From positions 124,001-188,000 of the forward strand of contig JAKSYS010000016.1 of the NCBI GenBank assembly GCA_022925895.1: a DNA stretch of 64,000 bases. Reading direction: 5' to 3'. Positions within the stretch are counted from its first letter, which is position 1. Every line of letters starts with the position of its first letter. This document shows positions 9,104-34,834 of this stretch, one piece after another. The notes beneath the pieces are model-generated. The model was not told where the DNA came from and made no database searches. It saw only the letters and a list, made by a program, of their open reading frames with translations. The stretch comes from Fragilaria crotonensis. Lineage: Eukaryota; Bacillariophyta; Fragilariophyceae; Fragilariales; Fragilariaceae. The translations under genes were made by a program, and so were the position numbers.

Positions 9104-9127
9104 CATCAGAAGGTGCGTATTGTTTAG
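9104..9127 (+). repeat. Left terminal inverted repeat of 10-kb transposon
   Basis: It begins CATCAGAAGGTGCGTATTG and matches the right end in inverse orientation except at positions 12 and 16. Confidence 0.92.
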
Positions 9128-12361: not shown

Positions 12362-12473
12362 CTGCCATACAGCGGAGAGTGGAGGTTGTTTCATCCATCA
12401 CGCGCTCGTTGCACTGCCATACAGCAGTGAGAGGTTCTGAACAAGACATTTTTTCCTTTTCCTGCCATACAGC
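12362..12473 (+). promoter_or_regulatory. Three copies of CTGCCATACAGC upstream of dioxygenase-like gene
   Basis: Exact copies lie at 12362-12373, 12414-12425 and 12462-12473, spaced 52 and 48 bp, the last ending 15 bp before the ATG at 12489. Nearly the same word (CTGCCATNTAGC) is repeated four times before the homologous gene of the MULE at 32288. The spacing and conservation point to protein-binding sites or 5'-leader elements; which of these is not shown by the sequence. Confidence 0.7.
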
Positions 12474-12488
12474 GGGAAGAGGAATACC

Positions 12489-13007
12489 ATGTCGTCCAAT
12501 CGACGTGATAGTGATCTGATTGCGAAGTCGAAGAGAACATCGCCTTGCCAGGCATCAGTTTTGAGCATGGGATCATCGCCGCGGCTCTCGAACGACGAAC
12601 AAGACGCCGCTGGAGATGGGGATACTTCGGTTCCAGAGGGACGTAGTCCACGTGAATATCTGCCGTCCCAAAATCAGGCGATGGCACTCTTGTCTAGGGC
12701 TCTGATCCCATCAAAGCGAGAGGCATTTACTTTGCGCTTTCAGCAGAGTGTGACGAAGGAAGACAATCGGATTCTTGGTGAGCCCACAATATGCAACACT
12801 CCCACCAGATGGATTGCTGATGCTTTTGGATGCGACGAGCCTTTCCGTCTCCGTGAGATGGGTGACATGTTCCTAGTCATGGAACTATGTCTGATTATCT
12901 CGAAGAATTTTACGTCATGGACGTCATTCTTAACCGGCACCTTCGCCCCAAAGGAAAACCAGCAAGGAGTTTTCCCGAATGGGAAGTCTGACAAGGATGA
13001 CAACAAC

Positions 13008-13063
<56 letters not shown>

Positions 13064-14882
13064 CGTTAACATGAACGATGTCACTGACGATCCATATGGA
13101 GGCGACGACAATGATTGCTTGTTTGCGGGTAAGGGCGGGGATAAGAATAATAGTAAACTTCCCGTTGATCCGGACAAAGTTGTAACGGTCTGGTGTTACA
13201 AACCTGAGGACCTCAACGATGCATTCGATTACAAGTTCAGGACAATGATTCTGTTTATGCCTCAGTGTGGCGTGTTTTACTGTGCACGGGAGCGCCGCAA
13301 AGGTGATGCGGGGGTTGCAAAGTCACTCATTCCTCTCGACATGAGCTGGCTGCGCATGAAGAGAACGGTGACGCCGCTATCCAGCAGTGGTGTTACAGGA
13401 GTTGCCGAAGTCACGTACACATTTGGCAAGGATGGCTACGTGAAAAGGTTTTCGGATACCCGATGGTCTGCAAAGTACTATCGCGACTTCAACCGTGTGT
13501 CGGCTTGGAGGATTTCACTCCACAAAACAATTGCACGACGACAGAATCGCATAATCTATAGGGCAGTACAGTGTCATGACAGTGATGGTCCCATGCTGCC
13601 ACCGGACATTTTCAACGGCCAGGATATTGGCTGTTGGCCGCAAGGTGTTTTGAAGGCTGAGTATAACCGCCGTCTGGCGAGGTCCAACAGTGCGAGGATG
13701 AATGGCCGCCACTATGCCATGGGTTGCCACCACTTTAGGCTCCCTGAACAGTGTTGGATCATCGATCCAGCACTCGATCACTACGTGGATGTTTGGATTG
13801 ATGTTGACACTGTGGGTCATTGTGCTGATCGGCAGTCGGTGGTTATGATCAGGAACCTGATGGTCGTTGATGGCGAAGCCGACCGACAATCTGCTATGTA
13901 TCGTGACGAATGGGACCACCACACGCACCTACTTGGGGCATTGAACCACATCACATTCCACAACACTGTGTTGAACCGTCGACTGGGAAAGGGTGGGAGT
14001 GTGAGGTCTAAAGGTGGTGATGTTGGCACAATGCACGCCATTGGTACTGGCTTTGACTTTAATGGTGCGATGCGTCCCTATGCTTCGAATCTGATGGTTC
14101 CCGAGCGCCTTCTGCGAAATATGGTCCTTTGTTTGGCACGATGTGGGGGAAGTTTTCTTCCCTCAGGTGCTGGCTGTGATGAGGGACACGGAATCCGATA
14201 CTGGTCTCCAGCCTATCTCACCAATGGAAGGTGACCCCCATAAAAAACGTAGCGCAGGATTTACTATTGACATGAGTGTCAACCTTGGTAATTCGTCGCA
14301 CTTCGACGTGCACGACGCTTCACAAGGCTACAGTGTTTGGACGGAAGAGATTCCCGGCTGTGGTGCCAACTGGTATTTTGTTCTGCCGAACGTCCACGGC
14401 AAACGGGCACCCCGGCGGGGGGCACATGGAGAGCAATTGGAGGGGAAACCTTTCGCTGGCCTGGCTATTAAACTTGGACATGGTGTGGCAATCAGTTGGG
14501 ATGGTCGTGTAATCAGACACTGTACGTCGATCTCCCAGCCTGACGGACTCAGCGGTGGAAAAGTTGGTTTCGATCGCAAGAAGTTTGGTAACAAGCTGTA
14601 TGGAACGTTCACCGCCGCGAAGGAAAAGGTAGTGAAGGCAGGGGGAGAGCGCAGTGTCAGGCAAGCAACAAGTTGGGTGTTGTTGATTCTTGCGAGAAAG
14701 AAGTTGGCGATCATCAGAATGGAGACAGTAGCGTTCGTGGTGGCCATGACGAGGATGGTGCCGACAATGCGCATGAGCAGCATGATCCACAAGCGCATGC
14801 ACCAGAGGCCAAGGAGGCGGGGCCCTTGTCACAACAAGAGAACATTGATAACTACAGGATTCCAAAGAAGAGGCGTACATGA
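12489..14882 (+). CDS. Transposon-borne 2OG-Fe(II) dioxygenase-like protein, two single-base frame breaks
   Basis: Homologous to the protein at 32288-34687 over most of its length. Shared blocks include PTRWIADAFGC, the EYNRRLA..N..R..GRHYA..C stretch, GDVGTMHAIGT and a C-terminal block. That block (about 14270-14530) holds SSHFDVHDASQGYSVWTEE, NWYFVLPN and AISWDGRVIRHCTS: an H-x-D followed by a distal His and Arg, the layout of the double-stranded beta-helix dioxygenases. This assignment is my inference. An Asp tract (GAT repeat) sits at about residues 175-195. The frame changes at the G5 run 14145-14149 and again at the G5 run 14641-14645. After both changes the C-terminus ends in a basic PKKRRT, a likely nuclear signal, at 14882. 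The substrate is unknown; a DNA or histone base would suit a transposon gene. Confidence 0.65.
13009..13062. repeat. GAT/GATGAT trinucleotide microsatellite in coding sequence
   Basis: About 18 GAT units encode an uninterrupted Asp tract in the dioxygenase-like protein. The MULE homologue lacks it, so it is not required by the fold. Confidence 0.9.
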
Positions 14883-14966
14883 CGAAGTCCGCCACTTACT
14901 ACTACAGGATGATCGCAGGCTTCGAAATGTCATTCATGAATAAATGCTTGTCTATTGTTGGATTCT

Positions 14967-17900
14967 TTAGTACCTCCTACGCTTCTTCTTGTTCGCGTAA
15001 GGTTGCACCACTACCCCATCAGAATCTTCTTTGTTGTGGACGCTGTCATATTCATCATTGGCACCATCCTCCTCCTCGTTGTCGCCATCACCTTCGTCAT
15101 CAACATCACCTTCTTTGTCATCAACATCATCTTCGTCGTCATCAACATCATCTTCGTCGTCAACATCATCTTCATCATCAACATCATCTTCGTCGTCACC
15201 ATCATCTTTGTCATCAACATCATCTTCATCATCAACATCATCTTCGTTGTCAACATCATCTTCGTCGTCAACATCCTCTTCATCATCAACATTGTCTTCA
15301 TCGTCAACCTCTTCCTCCTCGTAGTCACTTTCTAACGAAGGTGAATCTCGCGATTCATGACACTTGTTGATCATCGAGTCCCATGACGTTACCCATTCGT
15401 CTTTCCTCCGGAAAAGGAAAAGGTAATACTCCTCCGCTCCGACATCGCGAATGCCTATGGTTGGTGCGACAAGGTTGTTGACGTTAACCATGAACAATGT
15501 TGGCTTTGATTTCGCATCCTTGCGATTTAGTTTGTAACGACCTATCATTGTGTTGGAGAATTCCCTCACTTCCTCGTCGATTGCATCAAAGGAGTGTATG
15601 AGAGCGTACACTCCTGCTTCTTTTATTGATGGCTGTCCCGATTCTTGAAGGGCAATCCGTGCACCTCGGGGCAAGTGACGAAGGTCAACAAAGGTGTGGA
15701 TAAATGCCGGTAGTGGATATTGGAAGCCGTGCCACTCAACCATTGCATGGTCATTCCAAGGTTTGCCATCGTATATGCTTGGATGTGCACGATACTTATG
15801 CCCATTGACGCAAATGAACTCTGTGAAGCATGGAAGCTTCCCATCGGTCAAAAAGGGCAGCAAACAATGTTGCCCAAGGAAATGCATTGCACTGCGAGAC
15901 AAGGAGTCGCCACCAGGATTGTCTGTGGGATACGTCCGATTCCAGCGGAAGCTAGGGCTTGGATCCCCAACCCTCCGTGAGATTGTGAATTGTCGGCCAG
16001 ACATTGTTGGAAGTGCATCGTCTTCACCGGACTTTCCAGCAGCAGTCGCAAAAGAACTACCGCCCTTGTGAATGATATCCTGCTGCATGTCTTGCCATGC
16101 GGAGGCAATAGCAAGGTTTTCGATGTACCTGTGTGCCGCCTGCCTTGTGAATGTCTTCGCACGTTTTTGGGTGTTCCTTGCCGTGATCTTTGATAGAGGT
16201 ATGTGTGCTGATTCGGCATAGGCACTATTAACGTTCTCAGGAACCCCATGATCGAGGATGTCTTCGCTGAGGTGTAGGACCAAGTGGGTCTTGATAGTGT
16301 TATTGCCCATTCCACTCGCTCTCGGTGAGACACTTGCCATTTGACGCATCAGCCACTGCACTGCACAATGTGATTTTGTGACTTGCGCTTTTGAAATGGT
16401 GGATTGCTTCATCCATTGGTGCCACTGGAGGAGGGATGATACAACGAGTATCCAATCCGCAAGATGTGCCTCGTTGCTCAGCCTTTGTAGTTCTGGGTCC
16501 TTAACTTTCAACTTCTTTGGGTCCTTGACTTTCGACTTGTTCTTCGACTTCTTTGCACCGTTTTTGGGTGGCAGGGGCGGTGTGAATATTTGTCTGAATC
16601 TGGTTGTGTGCATTGCAAACAACTTCACCAACAGGCATCCTGTTATCTCGTGCCCCATCAAATTGGTGCCGGAAGAAAATCCTTTTGGGAAGTTCATTCT
16701 TGGGAGATCGCGGTCGCTGTGTCGTGACAATCGCCCACCAATGGAAGCACACAGTCGATCATAATATTTCAGGGACAAGGAGTCGCGACCGCCTGCTTGA
16801 GCTGCGAACGCTTCGAGACAGTATTTAAACCAGCCCAAGGAAATGAGGTGCAACATCTCACCAGGACACGCCCCAAATATTCCCCTCTTATTATGGAGAC
16901 CAAAACGAACCTTGTCAAAGCCGTTGACCAGATAGTTCTGCGACATTGCTTTCAGCCCTTCCAAATCACCCGATCTGACCAGCTTGTTGATAGCAGCTGG
17001 ATTCCTGTGGCGATACTTCGCCTTTGAGTATCCAGATTCAAGGGTGGGACATTCGCACACGCGACAAAGTTGCTTAACGGAGCTGAAGCGAGCTGTATAA
17101 TGCCCACATAGACGATCATGGCCCTCAGTATCGCCAATTATGAATGGGATGTAAGGATGCAGTACAATGGGATAAACCTTCCCATCGTAATGTAACATCC
17201 AATTGAATCCCTTGCGTTGCAAGTCAAGGAAGCCGGATTCTTCGAGGATGAACTTGATCTGCATGTGCATCTCGTTAAGGATGTAAGTGGACCAGCTCAC
17301 ATTGGGAATAGACTTCAGTGCAACTTGACCAATAACAGTGCCGTCAGGAACATCGGCAGCCATGGTGGGAGCAAACCCAGACTTTCTACCTTTTTTGCTT
17401 GTCGGCTTGTGTGCTGGAAATTGGCATATATAGCCAAGGATTCGCATTGCGCTATGCTGCGATCGAACACCATGCTTGAGAAGGCCATGAGATATAGTCA
17501 TGGGTTCCATCTGCATCCGACCATATGTGTCTACTTGTGTCTTGTCCATTGCTACGACTGTTGGTAAAATCATGTCGACACCCTTTTCTTGACAAGTTCT
17601 TTGTACGTCCTGCGGTAACAACGACCTGTATTGATGTCTCCAATGTCACCAGACTTTGAGGGTTCAACAAAAGGATCCTTATGTTCATGAAACAAATAGT
17701 TTTCGTCGCGATTCAGAAGAGGGCACGAGAGGAGAGATGCGAAGACTTGAGAGGCATCAAAATACACCATGGATACGATCCTCTTTGAATAAGGCAGATA
17801 GAGCTGCTTCTCCTTTGGTATTAATCCCTTCATGTTGTACCTGCAATACAACTTTTGTACAACCTTCTCTCGGGATGGTTGGCAGTCCACCTGGAATATA

Positions 17901-18567
17901 TGTCCATTACTGTTGGCTTGAGCTGACCAATTAAGAATACGAGTAAATGCATTGAGAGGTGCATTTAGCTCCTTGAGAAGGTGTAGCAATTCAATATGGA
18001 CCTTTTCCTCTCGAGAGAATCGGTCGAGGCCAAGTGGATTTGAACGCAACTCAAGCAGTTCCTCATACAGTTTCAGCACACATCGATCGGGTGCCCCTTC
18101 TCCGTCAACGTGAGGATCTTCTCCTCATTGTTCCAAGGAAGTGCATCATCTAATGATGGGAATCCATCCTCGCGATCATCTTCAATCTTACCATCCTCGA
18201 AACAACGCTCTTTGCTAGTCCTGGCTATACCTGATGATGCGTCCACTTTTGACGATTGCACGTTCGTCTTTCGAGTCAATGCTGGACCATTTGCCGGCTT
18301 CCTTGTCGAAGAAAGATTCCCAGAAAGTGGATGAGTCACAGATGACAAATCATTTGATGAAAGCCGTCCGCTTCTCCTTAGTGGTGAGGATTGTGTTGCC
18401 GCATCATTGTTACGAAGAACACTACCAGAAATGAACTCGTGGCATGTTGTGTAGAGCTGCTCGCAAATGGGACTCTGAGCAATGTGAGTTGAAAGCCTCT
18501 TGAACAATCGATGACAACCAGCACATCGCGAAGAAGAGGTAATACCACTAGTTGAGCCCGATGCCAT
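14967..18567 (-). CDS. Plavaka/CMC-like DDE transposase, frame broken twice
   Basis: Read from ATG 18567. The N-terminus has a Cys/His cluster (CAGCHRLFKRLSTHIAQSPIC), the small zinc finger that opens transposases of this type, then a basic linker. The second segment (18079-17570) carries the block ending GDIGDINTGRCYRRTYKELV. The third (17621 to 14967) holds VVAMDKTQVD (probable first catalytic Asp), MEPMTISHGLLKHGVRS, CPGEMLHLISLGWFKY and AESAHIPLSKITARNTQKRA, typical of this transposase family as I know it. The C-terminus is a long Asp/Glu tract. The frame changes near 18073 and near 17600, the latter at a GGG run. The role is excision and integration of the element. Its end converges on the dioxygenase-like gene. 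Confidence 0.85.
15040..15325. repeat. Acidic trinucleotide-rich tract (Asp/Glu/Val repeats)
   Basis: Plus-strand CATCATCTTCGTCGTCAA-type repeats encode alternating Asp, Glu and Val at the C-terminus of the transposase. Long ORFs on the other strand here are side effects of the repeat. Confidence 0.85.
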
Positions 18568-18573
18568 TTTCAA

Positions 18574-19078
18574 GAAACAATTTTAGAAACAAGCTGTGAG
18601 ATTTTGCATGTGCACAAAAAATGCTGTAAAATGAAACAAATGCCTTGAAGATATAAAATAAGAATTGCGACGAGTAAAGAAACCACTTGGCAGGAATTCA
18701 CAATTCTATTTCAATAGCCTCGAGGAAAATGGTAAGAAAACGAAAGATGTTTTCGAAGATGCGGGAAAATGTTGAGGCTTTGAATCGACAATTGAGTAAT
18801 CGAAAATCAAACAATTTTATGAAAGAACTCAATGTTGTTAAGAAATCATCCACTGTTGTTTTGATCATCATAATTGTGATATACTGAACAAAATTTTCTT
18901 CTATTTGTTATCATTACAACACGAATGCTATACATCCAATAGATGTTCGTTAAGACAAACATTAAAGTGTCGGAGACTTACAAAAGACGCCGTATTAATG
19001 TATGAAACCGCCATAAAATAATACATATCAAACAAATATTGTGAATATGCAACAAATTTCTCAATAAAAAATGACAAC
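18574..19078. other. Non-coding right end of 10-kb transposon
   Basis: About 500 AT-rich bases between the transposase start and the right inverted end. This is the expected transposase promoter and subterminal region. A 66-codon plus-strand ORF (18687-18887) has no recognisable features. Confidence 0.5.
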
Positions 19079-19102
19079 CTAAACAAAACGTACCTTCTGA
19101 TG
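19079..19102 (-). repeat. Right terminal inverted repeat of 10-kb transposon
   Basis: It ends ACGTACCTTCTGATG and is the inverse of 9104-9127 with two mismatches. TG follows, then the heptamer array in register. Confidence 0.92.
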
Positions 19103-19104
19103 TG

Positions 19105-20019
19105 GTTCATGGTTCATGGTTCATGGTTCATGGTTCATGGTTCATGGTTCATGGTTCATGGTTCATGGTTCATGGTTCATGGTTCATGGTTCATGGTTCA
19201 TGGTTCATGGTTCATGGTTCATGGTTCATGGTTCATGGTTCATGGTTCATGGTTCATGGTTCATAGTTCATGGTTCATGGTTCATGGTTCATGGTTCATG
19301 GTTCATAGTTCATGGTTCATGGTTCATGGTTCATGGTTCATGGTTCATGGTTCATGGTTCATGGTTCATGGTTCATGGTTCATGGTTCATGGTTCATGGT
19401 TCATGGTTCATGGTTCATGGTTCATGGTTCATGGTTCATGGTTCATGGTTCATGGTTCATGGTTCATGGTTCATGGTTCATGGTTCATGGTTCATGGTTC
19501 ATGGTTCATGGTTCATGGTTCATGGTTCATGGTTCATGGTTCATGGTTCATGGTTCATGGTTCATGGTTCATGGTTCATGGTTCATGGTTCATGGTTCAT
19601 GGTTCACGGTTCACGGTTCACGGTTCACGGTTCACGGTTCACGGTTCACGGTTCACGGTTCACGGTTCACGGTTCACGGTTCACGGTTCACGGTTCACGG
19701 TTCACGGTTCAGGGTTCAGGGTTCAGGGTTCAGGGTTCAGGGTTCAGGGTTCAGGGTTCAGGGTTCAGGGTTCAGGGTTCAGGGTTCAGGGTTCAGGGTT
19801 CATGGTTCAGGGTTCATGGTTCATGGTTCATGGTTCATGGTTCAGGGTTCAGGGTTCATGGTTCAGGGTTCAGGGTTCAGGGTTCAGGGTTCAGGGTTCA
19901 GGGTTCAGGGTTCAGGGTTCAGGGTTCAGGGTTCAGGGTTCAGGGTTCAGGGTTCAGGGTTCAGGGTTCAGGGTTCAGGGTTCAGGGTTCAGGGTTCAGG
20001 GTTCAGGGTTCAGGGTTCA
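19105..20019. repeat. Heptamer tandem array, right part, with three variant blocks
   Basis: About 130 copies of a 7-bp unit. The block to about 19605 is GGTTCAT (with GGTTCATAG variants near 19260 and 19305). About 15 copies of GGTTCAC follow (19606-19710), then GGTTCAG to 20019, with a few GGTTCAT units mixed in at 19798-19862. Only one position of the unit varies. Ordered blocks of a variant are what unequal exchange or slippage produces. Confidence 0.97.
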
Positions 20020-20979: not shown

Positions 20980-23900
20980 ATGAGAATGCCGAAAAGCACT
21001 CCCGGTAGCATCGCGCGATTCGCCGCTGTCGTCGTTGCGACGAATCTTCTAGCCGCTTTCGCCACTCTCGTCACAGTTGTATCCTTGTATCAGAGCTATA
21101 CCAGTACTCATATCATTGATGGTCGGAGTGCATCGAACCTCAATGTCGAGCGAGAAACTCGAAAGTGTTGCAAGTGTTTCGATGCATACTTCGGTACGCA
21201 GTTCTATTGTCCTTCATTTGAAGGATCGTTTGACATCTACACTTCCGGTCTCGTCGAAGTTAGCAACTCAAATCAAAACTCTCTATGCACTATCACTGAG
21301 ATTACGAAAGATTCTTTCCTCAAGCCAGTGGCACGCTCCTACAATGGCATGAACTGGGAGGCATCACCTGGAGACTATTCCGCTGTTGCCATTGCATGTG
21401 GTGCCAGTGGGTCATGTAATGTGTCTCTACCACTCTTGCCAGCTGGCTCTCGCTTCCAGATAACAACGTTCAAGCCACCGTCCTACACTGTTTCAGATGA
21501 AGTGGCTCGTTTTCTAGAACAAGCCACGTTCGGGCCAACATTGAACGACATTTCACTTTTCACCAGCAGTAGCATACTTCAGCTGTCCTTTGCGAACTGG
21601 ATCAAGACTCAACAAGCGTCAGTTCCTCTCACTTCCCATCGTGAATACTATCGCCGTCGCGTGAACTCTCGCTTTGAATACGCGACACCGATGGCAGCGG
21701 TGGCTCATCCTTGTCAAGCAGGTGCGCGCTACAGACGATTCGCATTCGCGTCAAAGGATCTCTACAAAATCCTCACAATCCAGACAGTTGGATCGTACAC
21801 CAAGCTGATTGTGGATGGGTTTGTTCGTACTGTGGTCAATGGGCCGGTAGTAGCCGTAAGCGGAGGTGCAGTGTTCGCCGACGGAAAGTAAGTTCGAGAT
21901 CGGGATGCTACTGATGTACCAGTTGGCGTGTTTGGATAGCTCTTACCTCGTGTCGCTCACTCATTCCTTCACTTATCACCCATCGCCTAATGCACTTGCA
22001 GATACCGCATATGCGGTGACCGCACTCCAAGACCTTGGATAGGAGGCGCAGTCTATCTTGAAGACTCGCTTGTTCGTTGCATAGCGGTCAATTTCAACCG
22101 TCAAGGAGGAAATCCTACAATTCAGTTTGTAGGTGGAGACCCACCCCAGACTGTCATTAAAATTGCAACAAGTGATGCGAGTGTCATGCTTCGCGCAGTT
22201 GATCAGCAATACTACGCATCTGTTGCGAATGCAGCTACGGCCGTCCAGGACCTGCTGGTTGTCTCCAACCTCACCGATCCCATCTGCTCCAAGTTGTCTC
22301 AACCTGGAAATCCATTGGATTTGGTGCTGCTGCATTACGACGGCAATTACTGGATTCACGATCCTCGTCATGTAAGTTGTATTTGTCTCTTGACTGCAGT
22401 GGAATCTTCCGCCTCCTTATCTTATAAGGTTTGTTGGTCGCCCGCAGGAACTCCTCGATAACACGCTCGAGTCGCCCTCACCAGATGGCGGGGGAAGCGT
22501 CTCCAAGGCTACTGCCAATTTTGGAAATCCGTACTTCAGTACTCTTTGTTCCAACGTGGCGCCTTCGTTCTTGAATGGGAACAATTGCATCCTCAGCAGT
22601 AGCGCGGACACGTGCTCCGTTGGCTCTGGTTTCGTCACGAGCTCCGTAGCACTCATTCCCCTCAATGCAACCACCATGAGACTCCTGTACACGGAATCAG
22701 GCGCAGGGGATGTTGGGACGTTGTTTCTCTATGCTATCGATGGACTCAGAATTGATAGCGATGTTACAGTTGCTCCACCTTGTCAGCAAAACGCCAAGTC
22801 GCGATGGATAAAGGTAGACTGCACGAATTCAATTGTCGATCCGAGCACTCAATCCCTTTTTGGAAATTTGATAGCGACTGCCCTCAAGACCAATACGAAT
22901 CCAAATGTTCTCGATGTGACCATGCCTATGACATTCACTTGCCCAACGAGTGAAGCAACGCAAGTGGGCTTCACAGTTGCTGATCCAACTGGGCAATGCT
23001 GGCGTAATGTGCACCCTGATCACCTCAATGTCTACGATTTTACATCTTGGACAAGAAGCCATCCTGGAAACGCCCTCAATTACAACCCAATCAAGCAGGT
23101 TGCATTGGATGGCTTGACGACCCTTTCTTTCCCCAGTTGGCACGGGTTGGAGCGATGGCAAGCCAACAAAGGACGCTTTCGCCTGGTGGGTAGATTGGGT
23201 GACATGTTCAACTACTATACCATCCCCCCTGCCTATCGGACTGCAGCCTTCAACATTGGCGTTGGCTTCAATCCCGTACCGCCGGTTGTACCAAACAACC
23301 AGACTGCTGTTTCATCCATAGCACCACTCGTCTGCGGCAGCCCCAACGAAGTTGCGAACGACGCTGCATTGGGTGGGAGTGACTATTACGGGGCATTCGT
23401 CACGTGGGCTCAATATTTTTCGACCACATTTGATAATGAATTATTCAAGCAAAGAAAGTACGTTTGGTCAAGCGTTGCTCTGGAAGCCAGCGATCAATTG
23501 AGACAACGCGTCGCATGGGCGCTGTCGCAAATTCTTGTTATCAGCCCAACTGGTGTTCGGAGGGGGCTCACCATGACAGAGATTTATGTTGTTTACTACG
23601 ACATTTTCGTCAGGAACGCCTTTGGAAACTATCGGGATGTCCTCAAGGAAGTTTCCTACAGTTCCCTTATGGCTGACATGCTCACCTTCAAAGGTTCAAA
23701 ATCTACAGCGTATGAGTTCGATACGTCCGGCACAGTCAAGTACGCCGACGAGAACTATGCTCGCGAAATAATGCAGCTCTTTACCATTGGATTGTACCGA
23801 CTGCTGCCCAATGGGAATAAAGTCCGCGATGCCCAAGGTCAACCAATTCAGGTGTACTCTAACGAGGACATTGTTGAATATGCTCGTGCGTGGACAGGAT

Positions 23901-26900
23901 TCAAGAGTCAGCAGCTGAGAGGAAACATAGAAATTGACTCCGAGAATCGTGTTGATCCGATGAGCATTGACGAGACCTGGAGAGATCGTTTCCCCAAGAT
24001 GGGATTGAATCGCAGATACGTTGGTGACGGCTATCCGCTGTGCGCCGACTTGCCGGACAAACACTTCTTGTCGAAGGGTGCAACCTACACACTCCTTGGA
24101 CGATCTCCCATGCCGCTGCGTCAACGTGACCCTGCAGATTGGCTGAAAGATCCACTCGTACGTCGCCTTAAATTGCAACCAAATGGCTCGAATTCTCTCT
24201 TCGCCAAGCTTTGTGGTGCGACGACCCCAGATGCTTGTCGTTTTGTTAATCGGGTTGTTCTTGATGACAACACGCCGTGCACAGCGACTGAATGCATAGT
24301 CGACACTGTTCGAACCGTCGAAGTTGCTGATGGCATATTTTATGAGTATTCTCGACCCCCGTGTGTGTATCAAGCGTTTTATGGTAATGCCAAGCTCGTT
24401 GCCTCACCTTCAAACTTCTTGAACCGCGTCTGCGCTGATCCTCGTACGGAAGTTGCCACAACCGCTTGTTGCCCAGCTAACGGGGCGCCACGGACATGGA
24501 ACTCCACTTTCTGGGGAGAACGCAGCACCTTCGCAACAGCCTCTCGAAAGTGCTATGCGAAACTTTGTACCCACACATCGCGGCCAGCCTGCGCCGGGAG
24601 GACGATTTGCGCAGGCAACGATCGTTATTGGACCAACACGGGCTGTACTTTCCGCGTCAAGATTGATGAAAGCGGAAATGCTGCGATCTTGCACCTTCCA
24701 TCAGGTGTTGCGAATACAAGTATCGCATCATTCGTCGGCGAAAGCACCAAGACATTCTTCCGCGTAGATTGGAGCAACTCCAGTGCCGTAAGAGGTATCA
24801 TCGCGAATTGTGCATCCGTCAGTGGATGCATGATGACTGTCGACGAAATGTGCATGTGTCCAGTCTCTGTGTCTGAAAGCCAGGTATTCTTTGACGGCGA
24901 CAACCCCTCGAAGGACGACGTGCTTCGCCGACTAACTGTCGGCGCCTTCCACCCAAGCTCACTTTCTGCTGAGTACACTTCGCAACAATCCGGTGACGTC
25001 ACATGGTACAGCAGGAATGGAGTATTGTCCTCGGATTCTGTATTCAGCGTCACGGACGATGCGGGGGTGACACAACTGCGAAAGAACGTGAAGTTGACCG
25101 TGACCATTGTGAACTCGGACATTTCGTTCCGCAATCCTGTTCATTTCATGAGTTTAGAAGACCCGGAGCCACGTGATGCTCATTATGAGACTGAAGCGAC
25201 CCTGGATCATTATTTCTACCATCCCAACACCGCGCCGTTCATAGCGACTCGTTTGGCACAGCGCTTCGGTATTTCCAATCCCTCGCCCGGCTACATAGCC
25301 AGGATCGCCGATTCCTTCCGGACCGGGCTGTACAGGTTCTCAGTGGGCTTCTCTTCTGTGATGTTTGGATCTGGCAGGTATGGCGACCTTGCGGCAACAA
25401 TCGCGTGCGTATTGCTGGATCGTGAGGCCCGCACGGTGGTGTTGGACGCCGACCCCGCTCATGGTTCGCTCAGGGAACCACTGCTACGAGTCATTGGATT
25501 GATGCGGTCGATGCAATTCAAACGCTATGACGACATACCGTACGTCGACTTCGCCAGCAATGCTGGTGCTGCGATTGGGCAAATGGCACATGAGATTCCA
25601 ACGGTGTTTTCGTACTTCTTACCGGGGTACAAGGCCCCGGGCGTCGTCGCACAGTCGTCGCTCGTTGCACCAGAAGCTCAAGTCGCAAGTGGTCCAAAAT
25701 TGGTCAATTTGGTCAACGGCATGTTATCGTTGATCAAGTATGGTTTCGATGGGTGTAATGGCGGTCTTGGAACTGTGACCGGCAGGCGTTCCTGCAGTTC
25801 ACTGAAGATTGGGGACTCCCTCAAAACCTTTGGGCGTCTGACATACGCGCCATCGTCGACATCTAGCGAAGTGATCGTGAACGAGCTGGCTACACTTCTG
25901 ACAGCTGGAAGACTAAGTGCAGAAAGTCGTCAAACTGTCCGAAAGGTTGTGGCAAACGAAACGGACCCAAGATTGGCTCTCATCAAGGCGCAGAGCCTCA
26001 TCGTCACATCACCCGAGTTTCATAGCAACACTATTGTGAAAAAGAGTGGAGACATCCGTCCCAAACCGCAGGTTCCCCCTTCCCCTCTCAATAGCTATAA
26101 GGCAGTTGTTTACGTGGTTCTTGGCGGGGGAGTTGACTCGTTCAATATGCTCGTACCACACTCCTGCAGCAGTACCAACGAAGGGGGCCAAACTCCGCGT
26201 GAGCAGTACAATGCCGTTCGAACGACCCTTGCGTTTACAGATGACGAGCGCACACGCATCATTGACGCGAGTGGACAGCCCTGTGAGCAGTTTGCGATCC
26301 ATCCTAATCTGGGAGTCGTCGAGAGATTGTACAAGAGCGGGGACCTTGCATTCTTTGCTAATGCCGGTGTCGTGAATGCTCCATCGAGATTCAGCAACTT
26401 CACGAGAGTTACCAAAACTATCCTGTTCGATCACAATTCCATGAGAGCAGAAGCGCAGAAGATCGACCCTTTCGATCGGGCATCTGGAACTGGTATCTTG
26501 GGTCGTATGTGCGACAAAATGAAGGAGAAGGGGTTCGTTGCGTTGCCCTTGAACGTTGAGGACATTGCAATAGCAACCAACGGCGTACCCGGAAATGGAG
26601 TCTCTCCTATCACGGTATCGTCGGCAGGTGTGCGTTCGTTCAATCCGAAGCCAGCTAGTGAGACTTTCGACCCTACAGCGCCTCTCCTTGAGTTGAATGG
26701 CAAGCCCAGGCTTCAGAGCAGTATCTTTGGTGAGACTTGGTCGAATGGACTTGTTCAGGCACTATATGACACTGCAAAGATTCGTGAAGATCTATCAAGT
26801 GTCAAGCTGCAACAGGCTTGGGTTGGAGACGGATATGTCTCGAAGATGAAGACAGTCGCCAATCTCCTTCTCTCTAACGTTCAACGCGGTTCCGATCGTG

Positions 26901-27443
26901 AAGTTATGTATGTGGAATTAGGTGGTTGGGATCATCATGCAGTAAGTACTGAATCTACCCGATGCCTTGGATGCATTTTATTCCGGAAATGCTCATAATT
27001 TTTGTTCGGTTCAGGATTTAAAAGTTTCCCTAACTTCCTACTTTGGGGAGCTCAATAAGTCATTAACTTACTTGGCGGACGAACTCATCGGTCAGGGATT
27101 GTGGGACAATGTAGCCCTGGTCGTTGCATCCGACTTTGGTCGCACACTGACTGTCAATTCACGCGAAGGAAGCGATCATGGATGGGGAGGCAACTATTTC
27201 ATGATGGGCGGCTCAGTCAAGGGAGGACAAGTCTACGGGCAATATCCCCTGGACATAACTGAAACCAGTCCTATCAATTATGGCCGTGGTCGAATCGCTC
27301 CAACGACTAGTTGGGATTCTATCATGAACAGTGTTGCAGACTGGATGGGCATTGAAGACGATGCGGGGCTGGATTACTGCTTGCCTAACCGTCGCAGAAC
27401 AGGCACAAAGTTATTCAAGAAAGAAGAGGTATTTGCCGTTTGA
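20980..27443 (+). CDS. DUF1800-DUF1501 fusion protein, four exons, about 2,066 aa
   Basis: Exons are 20980-21887, 22002-22371, 22448-26941 and 27015-27443. The GT-AG introns of 114, 76 and 73 bp join in frame. A hydrophobic N-terminus (FAAVVVATNLLAAFATLVTV) suggests a signal anchor. DUF1800 begins near residue 174 (DEVARFLEQATFGPT) and continues after an insert near 760-880 (LRQRVAWALSQILVIS, NYAREIMQLFTIGLY). A Cys-rich insert follows, and the last DUF1800 part is near 1320-1440 (PFIATRLAQRFGISNPSPGY). DUF1501 starts near 1643 (VVYVVLGGGVDSFNMLVPH) and runs to the end (DFGRTLTVNS, GSDHGWGG). In bacteria the two domains are usually neighbouring genes; here they are one. DUF1501 belongs to the sulfatase/alkaline-phosphatase-like fold (family knowledge). 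Substrate unknown. Frame is intact throughout. Confidence 0.9.
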
Positions 27444-27779
27444 GAGCACCCAACGATAAAGGAAGCCAAACCGTTCGTGTTTTATGTTATTTTAGACGGG
27501 GATACATCAAATTAGTTTTATCGTTCTGTCGAACATTTCTTGCTTTGGATCGCTTTCTTATTTCTGCTTGTATTGGACCCACTAATAATATGCAATTCAC
27601 GTTCGATTATAGATTATATGCAGTGTGTTTAAACTTCATGTATTGTGGCAGCAGAGCGTCGTATGATGATGAAATGTCATGGGTGTCTACGGTAGTGTCT
27701 ATGTCGTGGTCAATTCTGTGACGATGCGTGAAGGAGGGGAGATTGCATGCATAGATGTATCATAGTATCATAGATTAAT
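27444..27779. other. 3' flank of DUF1800-DUF1501 gene and MULE target
   Basis: No gene seen. Its last nine bases before the MULE (27771-27779, TAGATTAAT) nearly repeat at 35317-35325 as the target duplication. Confidence 0.6.
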
Positions 27780-28261
27780 GCGGAAATTACAATATCACGC
27801 ATTTTTTTGCCACTTTTCAATATAGTACAATGACTTACTATCCACAAATTCGTATTTTACTATATACTACATTTACAATTGTATTTTACAATATCACGCA
27901 TTTTGAAAAGAGACATTTACAATATCACGCATTGTTTTGCCCCTTTTTACTATATCGCGCTTTTGTCGCCTGCCATGCCCGACCTCCACGGACGTCATGG
28001 TACACCATCTCGTAATATTCATCAAAGATGGTTCACACTCATCGCTCCACCATGTCGTACATACGCAACGAACATCATCATCACTCACTTCTCATCTGTC
28101 GTTCGTTTACTAAGCGTCATACTTTGAGTGTGGTCATAATTCTTCTCCCTGCTCTTTTGTTTCAGAACAACAACTCAATCTTCATCTATATGGTCAACAA
28201 AATGGCACCAAATCTGAGATCAACAGTAGTCCCATACACAATCTGCGTCACGGTACTGTAC
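27780..28261 (+). repeat. Left terminal inverted repeat of MULE
   Basis: 482 bp matching 34835-35316 in inverse orientation. It contains several ATATCACGCATTTTG words near the tip (27790-27960), possible transposase-binding repeats. Confidence 0.93.
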
Positions 28262-28344
28262 GACCTATTGAAGCAAATTTCCAATCTTACATAAACAATG
28301 ATCTCATCGTGGCATGCTTCATGATGTACCCGTTCTCGTTTCTT

Positions 28345-30418
28345 CTACTTATTGTCATTGTTACCAACTAGTGCACTAGGACAAGTTCTTCGGTTGTGCC
28401 CTCTTCTTCCACAAATGGAACATTTCACAGGAGAATCCTCGCTTTCAATGAACTTACTGCGTTTGCGAATTCGTTTTGTTTTCGGTCGTCCAGATTGCCG
28501 TTTTGGCACGTTTGGTTCCTTTGTTTCACCATCATATACAGTCGTCTCCAAGCATACAGGGAAAACGTTCTTCTTGAAAGTGTTGTGCACGAACTCAAAT
28601 GTGTAGAATGGATGGACCAAACTTCTCAGAACATAACTGAATTCCTTTTCCTGCCATTTCCTGAAGACTGCACATGCATGTCGACACGGGTACAGGAAGT
28701 CTTGCCATACCCCGCAGCTGCACCACTCCAAGTATGGTTTGACAACAAGGACACGGTCTGGATCTCCATAGGATCGTGCCATCCGTTGCACATTGTCATC
28801 GCCATTTTCATCAACTATCGATATTGGTTCCACCACCTTGAAGTCACCACACCCCACCTCCAACTCATCGACCGTCATAGACGCAGCGGCATCCCACCTA
28901 CGTTTTAGAATCTGGGCAACTCTAGGCACCACCTCCGATCCATCTCGTTCAGCATACTTCTTTCGGCAAGCACACACTCTCGTCGTCATTATGTCAAGAA
29001 TTTTGTTCACAGCCTCCAGCCATCCAAGATTCCTTGCTTCCGATAACATACTGTTCGCCGACTCGGAAGTGTTCGAAGTTACAATCCCATACCTTGGAGG
29101 CAACTGAGCAGGTGACGGTGACGGTGAATCTGAGTACCACTGAGTACTCTGCCACAGAACACCCGACGCCGTTATGCCTTCCAAATATGTGGCGGCCTCT
29201 GGCTTGACCTTTCGAATCTCATCTAGCAACAGGCTGGCATTTCGTGTTGAGAATGATTTGGCTATTGAACACACAAACTTCGAACACTGCTTTCCATACT
29301 TCTGCGTTACATTCGCTTCGATGTGTCTAGCACAGCTCATTTCGTACTTATTCGGGAACACCGATTTCAATGCCTCCTTCAGGCCTTTGTCTCTGTCTGA
29401 AATGAAAAGAAACGGCGGCCTAACAACGCCATCCGTGTCAGTGTCGCCATAGCCCTGATCATCAATGATTGGACACGCTTTTTTCAACAATTCAAGCATC
29501 TTTTTCCACGTTGCTCCATCCTCGTTTCCGGCGGAGATCATAAACCCAATGGGGAAGATGTCATTGCACCCACTGAGAACTGATGCTATGTACAGAGTTC
29601 CCTTGTGTTCGCTCCTCAAATGTGTAGCATCCAACGACACTACTGGTCGAACAAACTTCAGCAACCCATTCATGATACCAGGAAATACATGAAGATCGAC
29701 AAGTCTCTTCTCCTCATCCCTAGTATACCCAATCACAGAACCAGGATTCGTTTTCTTCAAGCCCTCCAAAAATGGGATGACCATTTCGAAGTTTTTCACG
29801 GAAGCATTTCTCATGCTACTGGTTTGAAAGCGTAGCGCCCTGTACGCTGTCATGTACGAAACGACAACCCCGACTTCGTCGCAGCTGTCTTCACAACGTC
29901 CGCCGGTGTTGGAGCTCCTTCTTCGTGCGAACTATCTGATCGATAACATCATCAAGCACTGCATTTCGCCTCTTCTTCCACTTTCTCCCATCAGCTGCCT
30001 GTTTAGGTCGGCACACCTCACTGTGCATACCCGTAATCTTTCGGACGCAGAACATACCGTCGGATCGCCGCCTAGATATCAACACACGAAACGGACAGTC
30101 GACGTGCTCCATACATTGAAATTGTTTGAAACGGTCGCAAATGGAACGTTGCACTCTCAAACGATTACCCGATCTGACCTCATACTTTTCAATAAACGGT
30201 ACCACCTCTTCCAAGGTTGAGAAGCAGTCAACGTTCGCGTCATCAAGGATGTCATACAATACATAATCCTTTGTAGCCACTGAATTTCCTGCTTTCTGTC
30301 GACTTCCTCTCCTGTCAGGGTGGAAGTGCCGACGCTGTGATCGTGCTTCTCCTTGCCATCGGATTGCAACTGTACTCGTCACTGCTGTCGCAGGTGACGT
30401 AGTCATCATCATCATCAT
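28345..30418 (-). CDS. MuDR/MULE DDE transposase, two single-base frame breaks
   Basis: The upstream segment (30418-29891) starts after a poly-Asp stretch and carries a WRKY/FLYWCH-like DNA-binding block (VQRSICDRFKQFQCMEHVDCPF...GMHSEVC). The main segment (29853-28345) has VVSLDATHL (first Asp), FLFISDRDKGLKEAL (second Asp), TSNTSESANS (Glu), a SWIM zinc finger (CSCGVWQDFLYPCRHACAV) and a terminal CCHC knuckle (CSICGRRGHNRRTC). The bridge at about 29910-29855 reads as PADVVKTAATKSG in the third frame. Two one-base shifts, next to short A and G runs, are therefore needed between the parts. Its stop lies 84 bp inside the left inverted repeat. Confidence 0.88.
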
Positions 30419-30474
30419 CTCCTCAGCCCTGTCGTCGTCGTCGTCGTCATCGTCGTGATTCTCATTCCTCTTCT

Positions 30475-31602
30475 CTATCCTCGCCTGCGCTCTGTCTGCT
30501 GTTTTGCCGATAAAACGTTACTCACCCTGGCAGGACGATCTGCCTCCTCAGCCTGCAACGTTGTCAACACCAGGACAGCAGCACTCACATCACTGTCGGA
30601 ACTGAGCCTTCGTTCCTTCTTTGGTTCTTTATGAATGACCTCCAGCCCAAAACTGTCTAAGATGCTACTTCCGCGCAACTTAGGAAAGCAATCACGCACA
30701 ACCTGACTTGTTGTTCCCAAGTCAGCACCATCCCCCCCAAATACTGTCACCAGCCTACTTCGCAGTTTGGTGACGTCTTGTTGCCGAAACGTTTCTCTCG
30801 TGACATCAATGCCCTCGATGAGGTGTAATACAACACCCACTGCAAACAAGCCGCAGTCAAACCCATTCTTCTGGATGGGACAATCACAATAATGCACCCT
30901 GCCAATCAGCGCCGCGTCACTTTCCCTTAGGTGTGCATGTTTTTTCTCGTGTAGAATGAAATTGTGAATGAATAAATTCACAACCTTTACGATGCAAAGG
31001 ACATCGGGGTGAACCTGACGTGTGCGGCGTACCAGGGAATCATAAAACGTCATGTCATTTACGAACTCCGGCGTTGAGATCGAACAGTCCAGGCATAGCA
31101 CAAAAAAATGATTTCCCAACACAATCGGGATAAGCAGCCTGTTGAGAGTACGCGGCGATCCAAAACAAGCTTTCATTTGTTGCCGAATACGAGCGACGTT
31201 CCGACTGCGAGCAAGTTTACGTCCTCTCGTCGTCTCGTCTTCCACGAGTTCTGGATTATCATTGATCAAGTCATTACATGAATTGAAGTACTCATAGGTG
31301 CCAAGGCTTCCTATGTGAGATACATTCGTGGAAATTACCTCCTGGGGAGGGACAGATCGCTGCAATATACAGTCCAATAACAAAGTGCTCAGCCAAGCAT
31401 TCGTTGACAGCGCAGAAGTGTCATCACTGCTGGGTGATATCCATCCAGAAAAGCGAGGATCTCCCGGGAAACGTGCCTCCTTCATGGTATGTTTGTGGTG
31501 ATCACAACACAACTCCAAAGACACCCTCAAAAGAGGAAGATGACAACCGATGGTGGCTTGAGAATTCGATGTAAAAGTGGTACTTGTACGCTTCCGTAGC
31601 AT
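30475..31602 (-). CDS. Ulp1-like (C48) cysteine protease encoded by MULE
   Basis: The first ATG in the open frame is at 31602, giving about 375 residues. The catalytic layout is complete: His in VLGNHFFVLCLD (about residue 165), Asp in TFYDSLV (about 188), and Gln plus Cys in CPIQKNGFDCGLFAVGV (about 244 and 250). This family removes SUMO/ubiquitin-like tags; in MULEs the role is unknown. It ends just upstream of the transposase on the same strand. A GTGAGT near its end (about 30515) leaves open that the two ORFs are spliced into one transcript. Confidence 0.88.
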   Translation of the reverse strand: MLRKRTSTTFTSNSQATIGCHLPLLRVSLELCCDHHKHTMKEARFPGDPRFSGWISPSSDDTSALSTNAWLSTLLLDCILQRSVPPQEVISTNVSHIGSLGTYEYFNSCNDLINDNPELVEDETTRGRKLARSRNVARIRQQMKACFGSPRTLNRLLIPIVLGNHFFVLCLDCSISTPEFVNDMTFYDSLVRRTRQVHPDVLCIVKVVNLFIHNFILHEKKHAHLRESDAALIGRVHYCDCPIQKNGFDCGLFAVGVVLHLIEGIDVTRETFRQQDVTKLRSRLVTVFGGDGADLGTTSQVVRDCFPKLRGSSILDSFGLEVIHKEPKKERRLSSDSDVSAAVLVLTTLQAEEADRPARVSNVLSAKQQTERRRG

Positions 31603-32045
31603 TACGTCTAAGTGCAACGCTTAAGTGTTACGTCTAAGTAAAATACCTAAGCCTAGTAAGTGTTATTCATTTCAATTCATTTAAGAACGTGCGTGCGTTT
31701 TGCTATGAAAAAACAAGATTTCTGTAGGGGGTTGGTGTGTACTATATTGCCAAGTCACTATACACTAACCTACATGACTAGAGATAAATATCAAAATTTT
31801 GCTGTCTTTGGCGCGTTTGTTGGCTAGTTAGTAGTACTTTCGCGCGCTGGTAGGCTAATTAGTAGTCCATGATTCAAATTCACGCGAATTTCAACGTAAA
31901 ACATGTACTAACCAAAGAATTGCGCGCGGAGTTCTATGTCTTCTCAAGTCAAGTTTACTTCTTCTTCGTCTATCATTCCGAACAATCTTCGCATTCACCT
32001 CTTAACCTGAGGCCACCTCACTACCAGGAGCGCATCATCATTTCC
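31603..32045. other. Divergent promoter region inside MULE
   Basis: Non-coding stretch between the protease (minus) and dioxygenase-like gene (plus). It is AT-rich, with a duplicated short phrase (TTGGCTAGTTAGTAG / TAGGCTAATTAGTAG near 31820-31865). No other feature seen. Confidence 0.5.
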
Positions 32046-32255
32046 CTGCCATCTAGCCGGGAATGCTTGTTGCGTCGACAGAGTACTTTCTCCTGCCATT
32101 TAGCTTGGAGCTCTAAGTATTTGGTCACCTTAGTAGAACGAGGTGTCCTTGACGTAGGGTTAGAGTTGTTTCACTGAAACAAATTCCATCTGCCATCTAG
32201 CCGACGGAGTTCGTTTTGCTGTCAACAAGTTTACTGTACTCTCCTGCCATTTAGC
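32046..32255 (+). promoter_or_regulatory. Four copies of CTGCCATYTAGC upstream of dioxygenase-like gene
   Basis: Copies lie at 32046-32057 (CTGCCATCTAGC), 32093-32104 (CTGCCATTTAGC), 32190-32201 (CTGCCATCTAGC) and 32244-32255 (CTGCCATTTAGC), the last 32 bp before ATG 32288. They differ from the three words before the homologous gene at 12489 only in the two bases after CCAT (AC there, CT or TT here). Confidence 0.72.
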
Positions 32256-32287
32256 TGTGAGTGTATAGTATTGGCAAACCATTTGCC

Positions 32288-34687
32288 ATGTCGGACTTGA
32301 TACCAAACGAAGACAACGAAACGTTGAAGGCGCGATGTCGGACGTCCATTTGTCGGTCAACTATGCTCAACTTTGGAAAGGAAAATCCACGTGTGGTAGT
32401 GGTGGATCCTTCAAGAAAACGGTTAAGTAACAAGATGCCGAAAAAACGCAAGCAGAGGAATTACTTTCCTTCCAGTCCAAAGGTGTTGGCGCTTCTACTA
32501 AAGTGCTTCCCCTTGAACGGCGGTAATTTCAGTGAAGGTCGGGAATTTGCGACTGCGTTTCGCGATGCAACGAAAACAGGGACGATGAAGGGCGAGGTCG
32601 AGATATGTGGGACACCCTTGCGATGGATAGCGTATGCGCTTGCTTGTTCATTCGGTATCAACAACGATTCGGATCGTAGTACTGCCATCACGCAATTGCG
32701 GTCTCTGGATGACATGTTCATGAAGCACGGATCATCCTCCGAATTCCTTTCGGAATTCATCCTAATGGATGTCATCTGTAATCGGAGGATTACCCCGACG
32801 GCTGCCGCGGCATTGGGTATAAGTGACTCAAGTTATGGTAACTTGGGTGAAGACGACGTCATTATGGCACCTGCGTCTGAAGAAAAAGACCTGGATGATG
32901 TCAACGACTTCAAGTACAGGACTCTCCTTGCGTTCCTCCCGGGGGCGGGTGTATTTTACGCTGTAAGGGACTGGCGAAGAAAGTCAGAAGGTGTAGAAGG
33001 TTCCAGGATTGCCATGGACATGAGTTGGTTTCGTCTAAAGACTGGCATGGAGCAGTCGCCGCAGTCGGACTTGCAATTTGGTGGGGATGGTTACGTTAAA
33101 AGGTTTGCCAGCATTACGAGAAAGGGGTCGCCACAGTCTACTTTTGTGTCTGCGTGGAGAGTTGCGTACCATCCCGCCACAATAAATTTTCCGCGTGAAG
33201 TGTTCACGTCAACACAATGCGCGGATCACGAAGGCCCAAGGATGCCACCAGATCTTATCTCTGGCCACGATGTGGGTGCGTGGCCAGTTCCTGACCGAGC
33301 TCAGGAATACAATCGCCGCCTTGTCAACTCTAATTCCACAAGGGTGGGTGGTCGTCATTACGCTCCTGGGTGCTTGCATCTTAACATCCCCGATACTTGC
33401 TGGATTGTTGATCCTGGGGAACGCCCATTCGTTGACATCATAGTCGACATTGCACCACCAGTGCCAAGCACAATTGGGAGGAAGTCTGTCATCATGGTCC
33501 GAAGCGTTCTTGACGCATCACTCAAGTCGCGGTATTGTCATCTGAAGCAACAATATGACGTTGTCGGTTGCCTAGACGCAATTGTGGAACACAACTCACT
33601 TCTGCGTCGGAATGTACCTGTTGGCACGGCGAGACAGAACAAAGGAGATGTTGGGACAATGCATGCCATTGGGACACGAGTGCTCCTTGACGGATCGGGT
33701 ACTGTTGGATACGCCGCTAACTATAAGGTGCCGCAAACAGTACTGAAAAGGTTTATTGCGGCGTTCGCAACTATCGGTATGTGCTGTTTTCCCGATGTGC
33801 TGTCTGTTGTTCAACACATGGAAGCCGATTCATCTCTTCCACCCATTGCTCCGATGGGTGAAAATGACTGCAATGGGATCCGGGTGGGCTACACGATTGA
33901 TATGAGCGTTGACCTAGGAAATGCGTCGCATTTCGACGTAAACGACGCGTCGCAGGGCTTTAGTGTGTGGACAGAGGAAATGCCCGGTTGTGCATCAAAC
34001 TGGTACTTGATCTTCCCCAATTTGCACGGAAGGAGGCCATGCGGAACGGAGTACAATGGCATTGCCGTCAAGCTTTATCATGGGACAGCCATAAGCTGGG
34101 ACGGACGTGCTGTGAGACATTGCACGTCGGTGTCTCGACCGGATGGGCAAGGTACAGCACCAGTACGCTCGGGTTGTTGGAATGGCAACAATCACTTATA
34201 TGGCACCTTCACGGCAGCCAAGGAAAAAGTTGTGGCGGCAGGTCGACGTCGTGCTTCAGGAAGTAGTGCGGCAGCAGATGTTGTCACGAATGTGGCACAA
34301 TCAAATACAGGGCGCCCGAAGAGACTATTCCACGAGGTGAAGGAGAAGGACGACGAAATGAAGAAGATCACCTCTGGATCACATGACCGTGATGACAGCA
34401 ATGACGAGGCAGAAACATACATTCGTCGTTGTATTCAGCATGGTTGTCGTTACAACGATGACGACGACGTTGTAATCGCTACTGCAAGAGGGATGCGGGA
34501 GGAGGAAGGGATGGCACGTCAATTCCAGTCTGACTTGGAAATGACAAGTGACGAAGACTGTCCTAGAGTGCAGGCACGGAGGAGGCAGGCAATGCGTAAT
34601 CGTTTGTTGGGTCTGGATTTGTACAGACCTGACGACGATAAAGAATGCTGTTCAAAAGATACTGATGACAACGATGAAGACAATTGA
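32288..34687 (+). CDS. Transposon-borne 2OG-Fe(II) dioxygenase-like protein, intact
   Basis: Open frame of about 799 residues from ATG 32288; the basic N-terminus includes KMPKKRKQR, a likely nuclear signal. It shares many blocks with the gene at 12489, including PLRWIAYALAC, EYNRRLVNSNSTRVGGRHYA, KGDVGTMHAIGTR and the C-terminal GYTIDMSVDLGNASHFDVND. The last part has H-x-D (His 33929-33931, Asp 33935-33937), NWYLIFPN and AISWDGRAVRHCTS with a distal His and a following Arg. That order fits iron and 2-oxoglutarate binding in the beta-helix dioxygenases; the function is inferred and not proven. The C-terminal tail is acidic and disordered. It is the only plus-strand gene of the MULE and is an undamaged reference for the broken copy. 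Confidence 0.7.
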   Translation: MSDLIPNEDNETLKARCRTSICRSTMLNFGKENPRVVVVDPSRKRLSNKMPKKRKQRNYFPSSPKVLALLLKCFPLNGGNFSEGREFATAFRDATKTGTMKGEVEICGTPLRWIAYALACSFGINNDSDRSTAITQLRSLDDMFMKHGSSSEFLSEFILMDVICNRRITPTAAAALGISDSSYGNLGEDDVIMAPASEEKDLDDVNDFKYRTLLAFLPGAGVFYAVRDWRRKSEGVEGSRIAMDMSWFRLKTGMEQSPQSDLQFGGDGYVKRFASITRKGSPQSTFVSAWRVAYHPATINFPREVFTSTQCADHEGPRMPPDLISGHDVGAWPVPDRAQEYNRRLVNSNSTRVGGRHYAPGCLHLNIPDTCWIVDPGERPFVDIIVDIAPPVPSTIGRKSVIMVRSVLDASLKSRYCHLKQQYDVVGCLDAIVEHNSLLRRNVPVGTARQNKGDVGTMHAIGTRVLLDGSGTVGYAANYKVPQTVLKRFIAAFATIGMCCFPDVLSVVQHMEADSSLPPIAPMGENDCNGIRVGYTIDMSVDLGNASHFDVNDASQGFSVWTEEMPGCASNWYLIFPNLHGRRPCGTEYNGIAVKLYHGTAISWDGRAVRHCTSVSRPDGQGTAPVRSGCWNGNNHLYGTFTAAKEKVVAAGRRRASGSSAAADVVTNVAQSNTGRPKRLFHEVKEKDDEMKKITSGSHDRDDSNDEAETYIRRCIQHGCRYNDDDDVVIATARGMREEEGMARQFQSDLEMTSDEDCPRVQARRRQAMRNRLLGLDLYRPDDDKECCSKDTDDNDEDN

Positions 34688-34834
34688 TGTTGATGTTAAT
34701 GATAACTAACTTGCACATCAAGTGCGAAGTATAATGGTAGCAAAGTGAGTTAACAGCAAAAAGCAGTGAACACACTGGTAAGATAATGGCATGTTGCCCT
34801 TCATGGGCTTCGCTACGTCAGTAGGTTGTTTGTG

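Follow-up and report, generated by a model that had tools for sequence, protein, structure and literature searches.

One gene family on two unrelated DNA transposons of Fragilaria crotonensis: candidate divergent TET/JBP-like oxygenases

A 64,000-nucleotide stretch of the Fragilaria crotonensis assembly GCA_022925895.1 (contig JAKSYS010000016.1, positions 124,001 to 188,000, forward strand), hereafter the window, contains two related genes that lie within two unrelated DNA transposons. Gene 1 is carried by a Plavaka-type element and gene 2 by a Mutator-like element (MULE), and each element possesses its own transposase gene. On balance, sequence comparison tips slightly towards the view that both genes encode a highly divergent, Fe(II)-dependent oxygenase of TET/JBP type, which would be accessory to the two transposon superfamilies.

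The gene pair

32288-34687, plus strand: gene 2, candidate TET/JBP-like protein, intact, 799 aa (P0001); uninterrupted open reading frame (ORF) and profile alignments
12489-14234, plus strand: gene 1, first frame, 581 aa (P0002); ORF list and BLASTP
14143-14943, plus strand: gene 1, second frame (P0003), which contains the HxD...H core, homology over 14143-14655; BLASTP

The initial annotation had placed one gene family at both loci, and BLASTP bore this out. The first frame of gene 1 shares 37% identity with gene 2 over 332 aa (E 6e-69) and the second frame 55% over 172 aa (E 2e-59); a weaker N-terminal block is also common to both genes (E 9e-10). No similarity between them was found at the DNA level when the window was compared with itself by BLASTN. 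Across 453 aligned codons, identity was 59% at first, 67% at second and 33% at third positions. Third positions are far less alike than the other two, which indicates that the shared protein, and not the DNA, was conserved, and that the encoded protein was under selection in the past.

Gene 1 had also been described as a single gene at 12489-14882, which proved incorrect. Reading passes from the frame 12489-14234 to the frame 14143-14943 in or close to a GGGGG run, so that the gene is frameshifted. At 14882 the first frame meets a later stop, and seven further same-frame stops lie between 14234 and 14882; the span 12489-14882 therefore cannot be read as a single open frame. The gene at 32288-34687 is indeed intact, with an open frame of 799 codons.

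The Plavaka-type element carrying gene 1

9104-19102, no strand: complete Plavaka-type DNA transposon, 9,999 bp; 24-bp terminal inverted repeats (TIRs) and satellite phase
9104-9127, plus strand: left TIR; search for paired ends
19079-19102, minus strand: right TIR; search for paired ends
9102-9103 (left) and 19103-19104 (right), no strand: target duplication TG; satellite phase
14967-17621, minus strand: Plavaka-like transposase, main frame; PF18759, E 5.2e-5, under the Pfam cutoff
17570-18573, minus strand: frames upstream of the transposase (17570-18079 and 18073-18573); position and frames
9493-11433, minus strand: 646-aa ORF; ORF list

The element begins with CATCAGAAGGTGCGTATTGTTTAG at 9104 and closes with the inverted copy at 19102; the two ends differ at 2 of 24 bp and have CATCA..TGATG termini. 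A 7-bp satellite, GGTTCAT, abuts both ends (8426-9103 and 19103-20019, about 1.6 kb in total). Because this satellite is open in several frames, it resembles long ORFs. When 9104-19102 and one TG are excised, the 7-bp period is restored at 73 of 73 positions; at the other seven offsets in the range 0 to 7 the phase is imperfect. This indicates that the element entered in one insertion event that duplicated 2 bp. According to Kojima 2025 (PMC12730594), PlavakaB elements have CATCA..TGATG ends and duplications of 2 or 3 bp. Both the termini and the TG duplication of 9104-19102 agree with this description.

The match of the transposase to PF18759 reached 23.1 bits, below the Pfam cutoff of 26.3. 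The transposase and gene 1 are arranged tail to tail. The two upstream frames show no Pfam Plavaka match; they are probably the N-terminal part of the transposase, split by frameshifts or introns. The 646-aa ORF has acidic and lysine-rich parts and matched nothing in the Pfam search, and may be a third gene of the element.

The MULE carrying gene 2

27780-35316, no strand: complete MULE, 7,537 bp; TIRs and target duplication
27782-28264, plus strand: left TIR; BLASTN self-comparison
34832-35314, minus strand: right TIR; BLASTN self-comparison
27771-27779 (left, TAGATTAAT) and 35317-35325 (right, TAGATTAAA), no strand: target duplication; flank comparison
28345-29853, minus strand: MULE transposase with SWIM zinc finger; PF10551, E 3.9e-9, and PF04434, E 8.7e-6
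30475-31617, minus strand: Ulp1-type SUMO protease (Peptidase_C48) inside the MULE; PF02902, E 4.4e-9

This element combines a MULE transposase, long TIRs and a duplication of about 9 bp, as is typical of its class; with the element taken as 27780-35316, the flanks TAGATTAAT and TAGATTAAA agree at 8 of 9 bp. The TIRs are 98.6% identical across 483 bp, by which measure the MULE appears to be young. MULEs with Ulp1-like proteases are known from plants. The MULE of the window is similar in having a transposase and an Ulp1-type protease between long TIRs, but differs by its additional third, TET-like gene. About 620 bp beyond the end of the MULE, a DEAD-box helicase gene with a DBP10CT domain starts (35938-38375, plus strand, two ORFs), and the MULE may occupy the promoter or the 5' part of the helicase gene.

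Each of the two genes therefore sits inside a complete DNA transposon, and the defined ends of both elements go further than the initial annotation. That annotation had called the carriers unrelated, and their transposases do match different families (PF10551 for the MULE, and PF18759, below its cutoff, for the Plavaka-type element). A weak tblastn match at 2638-2796 was attributed to chance.

Similarity to the TET/JBP family around the H-x-D motif

33929-33937, plus strand: gene 2 H548-F-D550, proposed Fe ligands; aligned to the TET/JBP HxD
14299-14307, plus strand: gene 1 H-F-D motif, proposed Fe ligands; invariant columns, aligned to the TET/JBP HxD

The TET/JBP reference consisted of four phage proteins (Cr30, DLP_6, S-CBWM1 and Melnitz) that score above the cutoff of the Pfam Tet_JBP model (E 8e-21 to 4e-11). 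A wider profile was built from these and 80 IMG/VR loci, giving 84 domains, 40 of them non-redundant. The hidden Markov model (HMM) searches covered 4,313 targets: 4,000 shuffles, 308 other ORFs, 2 reversed sequences and the 3 window proteins. P0001 ranked first with the four-phage HMM, at 8.4 bits, a score matched by none of its 2,000 shuffles. The alignment spans residues 536-579 of gene 2 and places HxD over HxD and YLIFP over YLVFP. P0003, the second half of gene 1, was matched by 14 of 2,000 shuffles, and P0002, the first half, which does not contain the core, by 401 of 2,000.

Profile comparison also placed the H-x-D motif in a TET/JBP sequence context. In HHalign, whose global mode gave no sensible alignment, the two-gene core A3 scored 28.2 and 29.5 against the two TET profiles (E 0.0011 and 0.0004). 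None of 300 column permutations of core A3 per profile reached the real score, the best permuted values being 22.5 and 21.0. Two PKHD oxygenases, used as a positive control against the same profiles, scored 22.5 and 22.2, and the scores of the window pair are clearly above these. The decoys were 42 plus-strand ORFs of phage P-SSM2 (at least 100 aa, cut to 400), of which the best scored 21.7 and 18.2; the top one is a phage protein without an oxygenase name. Compared directly with the same 42 ORFs, the window pair scored at most 17.4.

The HxD, a glycine at +9 from its histidine and a Y[LF]x[FL]P block occur in all four phage proteins and in both window genes, and a further aspartate at +5, present in the window genes, occurs in three of the four. 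The TET2 and CcTET fragments, as printed, show the glycine too. In one of these phages, Methylophilales phage Melnitz-3 (L006 688-2872), a gene annotated as an HhaI-type cytosine methylase adjoins the TET/JBP gene; the two are likely a write-then-oxidise pair.

In a further test, 29 single sequences were ranked by their scores against the window pair, namely the 4 phage TETs, 6 other oxygenases and 19 unrelated E. coli proteins. Phage TETs were first (28.3) and third (22.4), AlkB was fifth (19.1) and TauD sixth (16.4). Six oxygenase fragments from the PDB were also compared with both window genes, with 1,000 shuffles each. An ungapped 32-column match to CMD1, the vitamin C-using TET homologue of Chlamydomonas, was reached by 21 and 11 of 1,000 shuffles.

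The distal histidine and the 2-oxoglutarate arginine

34118-34120, plus strand: gene 2 H611, proposed distal Fe ligand; common to gene 1, weak register support
14518-14520, plus strand: gene 1 distal His, proposed third Fe ligand; common to gene 2, weak register support

A conserved histidine follows the HxD histidine by 63 residues in gene 2 and by 73 in gene 1. In TET/JBP enzymes the distal Fe(II)-binding histidine lies about 50-65 residues downstream. Aligned at low stringency, H611 fell on the phage histidine with one phage profile; the second profile gave no such alignment. The best alignment of gene 2 to the TET2 fragment placed H611 on the TET2 histidine (322 of 1,000 shuffles), and gene 1 was one residue off register with the same fragment. 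In an 11-column alignment, WDNRVTQH of TauD corresponds to WDGRAVRH of the window, which sets the distal histidine of gene 2 on that of TauD. The aligned distal histidines of the TauD and TET sequences are metal ligands.

The initial annotation had taken the family for 2-oxoglutarate/Fe(II) dioxygenases. In favour of this idea are the TET/JBP profile match at the H-x-D and the conserved downstream histidine, whereas its 2-oxoglutarate-binding arginine was not recovered. The first arginine common to both genes after the distal histidine lies 44 columns on, past GTFTAAKEKVV, the last conserved block. The RxS of the last core strand has the same R and S in all four phage TETs, which thus keep an arginine that the two window proteins lack. 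This suggests that the co-substrate is bound differently, or is not 2-oxoglutarate.

Evidence against the assignment and alternative explanations

Several results weigh against a TET/JBP-like oxygenase. Beginning with the proposed active site, no arginine at the TET/JBP 2-oxoglutarate site is conserved between the two genes, and the scores of the half that holds the distal histidine were reached by 291 of 300 and 138 of 300 permutations. With the 40-sequence profile, P0001 ranked second, one of 2,000 shuffles scoring higher, and P0003 was matched by 50 of 2,000. HHalign probabilities were low (20% and 36% for A3, 15% and 29% for the longer core A6, in each case over 44-45 columns). The PKHD control barely exceeds the best unrelated phage ORFs and is therefore weak. 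In the single-sequence ranking, the unrelated E. coli proteins PepT (24.6) and NapA (20.2) were second and fourth; the third phage TET was only seventh (16.3), in register, and the fourth scored 13.1, out of register. Among the PDB fragments CMD1 alone gave a low count, the other five being reached by 89 to 831 of 1,000 shuffles.

The database searches point in the same direction. No oxygenase match for the window genes was found in Pfam, NCBIfam or PHROGs, and none to Pfam Tet_JBP (PF12851) with the full proteins at E up to 1 or the cores at E up to 10. Sequence searches of the PDB with P0001, A2 and A3 found no oxygenase; arenavirus GP1 chains appeared at E 0.012, 0.0014 and 0.42, respectively, and were read as chance. 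No convincing relatives were found in the viral-contig collection (protein, alignment and DNA-pattern searches) or in the genome-contig, plasmid and phage collections, and a plasmid record at E 0.7 was dismissed as noise. A ParD match in NCBIfam (E 0.0016; 18.4 bits, where the cutoff is 46.2) was set aside, as it sits in the non-conserved tail. AlphaFold2 models built from 3-row alignments had a mean confidence (pLDDT) of 30.9 for the whole protein and 30.8 for a 208-residue core.

One alternative is that the enzyme belongs to this broad superfamily of Fe(II) oxygenases but has a protein substrate, for instance a histone or the transposase, in place of DNA. We regard this as unlikely. The HxD...H and the TauD-like WDGR..RH are features of the superfamily and no proof of a DNA substrate, and two of the four phage TETs scored under TauD and AlkB as single sequences. 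The MULE also contains the Ulp1 protease, so chromatin proteins may be the targets of its accessory genes. On the other hand, the window pair scored 28-29 against the TET/JBP profiles and only 11.9 against the pair of PKHD-type proteins, which fit poorly. As single sequences, the E. coli proteins RoxA (JmjC-type, 11.7), YbiX (9.7), TauD and AlkB all remained below the best phage TET.

It is likewise unlikely that the genes encode no oxygenase at all and that the HxD matches by chance, the product being a differently folded transposon protein such as a DNA-binding one. Such a protein would account for the Pfam, NCBIfam, PHROGs and PDB sequence searches without an oxygenase match, for the lack of a usable fold in the AlphaFold2 models (pLDDT 31), for the position of PepT above three of the four phage TETs, and for an HHalign probability of 0.5% with a TET fragment. 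It does not sit well with the column permutations, none of which reached the real score against either profile, or with the superposition of HxD on HxD in the alignments of both genes.

A host gene captured twice as a passenger, in the manner of Pack-MULEs and without use to the elements, is very improbable: gene capture by MULEs is well known and gene 1 is frameshifted, but the gene is present in two unrelated elements that each have a transposase gene of their own, gene 2 is open for 799 codons in a young element, and selection is visible between the copies, though it could predate capture.

Relation to known systems

TET/JBP genes are described on 11 lineages of fungal DNA transposons, Plavaka included, in Kojima 2025 (PMC12730594). 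The situation in the window is similar in that a TET/JBP-like gene occurs on more than one DNA transposon superfamily, unrelated to each other and Plavaka again included. According to the same study, all TET-bearing Plavaka families fall within PlavakaB, and no other Plavaka lineage was found to carry TET; the element in the window shares with PlavakaB the CATCA..TGATG ends and 2-bp duplication (PMC12730594). The fungal genes were identified as TET/JBP from their sequence or structure (PMC12730594), whereas the family in the window is missed by the Pfam Tet_JBP model. The main text of that fungal study does not contain the terms MULE, Mutator, diatom, stramenopile or algae (PMC12730594). Among the open-licence literature, a scope that leaves out two papers by Iyer and colleagues, no report of transposon-borne TET/JBP genes outside fungi was found. 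If the assignment is right, the MULE would be a new carrier superfamily, and the window would probably represent a new host group, for such genes, which are known in fungi.

CMD1 offers a second comparison. Its HxDxxD followed by a [LV][IL]P[NS]-type block is common to the window genes. A review states that canonical 2-oxoglutarate sites are absent from CMD1 (PMC11065753), and the arginine of that site seems likewise absent from the window genes. CMD1 is a solved enzyme of known chemistry, and the likeness does not imply that the window proteins use vitamin C. No report of CMD1 on a transposon was met in the literature searched.

Other features of the window

An ORF of 1,480 aa at 22556-26998 (plus strand) matches DUF1800 (E 5.2e-51) and has weak similarity to DUF1501. 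Both are mainly bacterial domains, and a gene transfer into a eukaryotic genome is possible. The window also contains a 352-bp direct repeat with 85% identity, at 42898-43247 and 43975-44326.

Implications

If the encoded protein is a TET/JBP-like oxygenase, H548, D550 and H611 would bind Fe(II), and the enzyme would oxidise a silencing mark on the DNA of the element, most likely 5-methylcytosine or another methylated base. Oxidation of the mark would lift silencing and allow the transposase to be expressed. The suggestion of the initial annotation, that the enzyme may modify DNA or chromatin and so protect or wake its element, likewise has the rank of a hypothesis. The gene may have moved between superfamilies or been captured repeatedly, because, as we propose, it pays its carrier; the fold, the iron, the substrate and the benefit to the element are all what we infer. 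Methylation in the diatom Phaeodactylum is reportedly confined to transposable elements (PMC12344493), so that an anti-silencing role would be plausible if the host is a diatom. A bolder scenario, which we consider quite unlikely, is a transposon TET-like lineage outside fungi that has lost its 2-oxoglutarate anchor and uses another co-substrate, as CMD1 does; a new modified base, written by the enzyme on the transposon DNA, would hide the elements from silencing by the host, and the gene would be a portable anti-silencing module that moves between unrelated superfamilies.

The absence of the 2-oxoglutarate arginine raises the question of the co-substrate, and gene 2, being intact in a young MULE, should be expressible and open to assay. 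If true, a case from a second branch of eukaryotes would add a MULE carrier and an enzyme that escapes sequence models to what is known. If it arose independently there, transposons would have converged on carrying mark-erasing oxygenases in response to DNA-based silencing, and the habit would not be peculiar to fungi.

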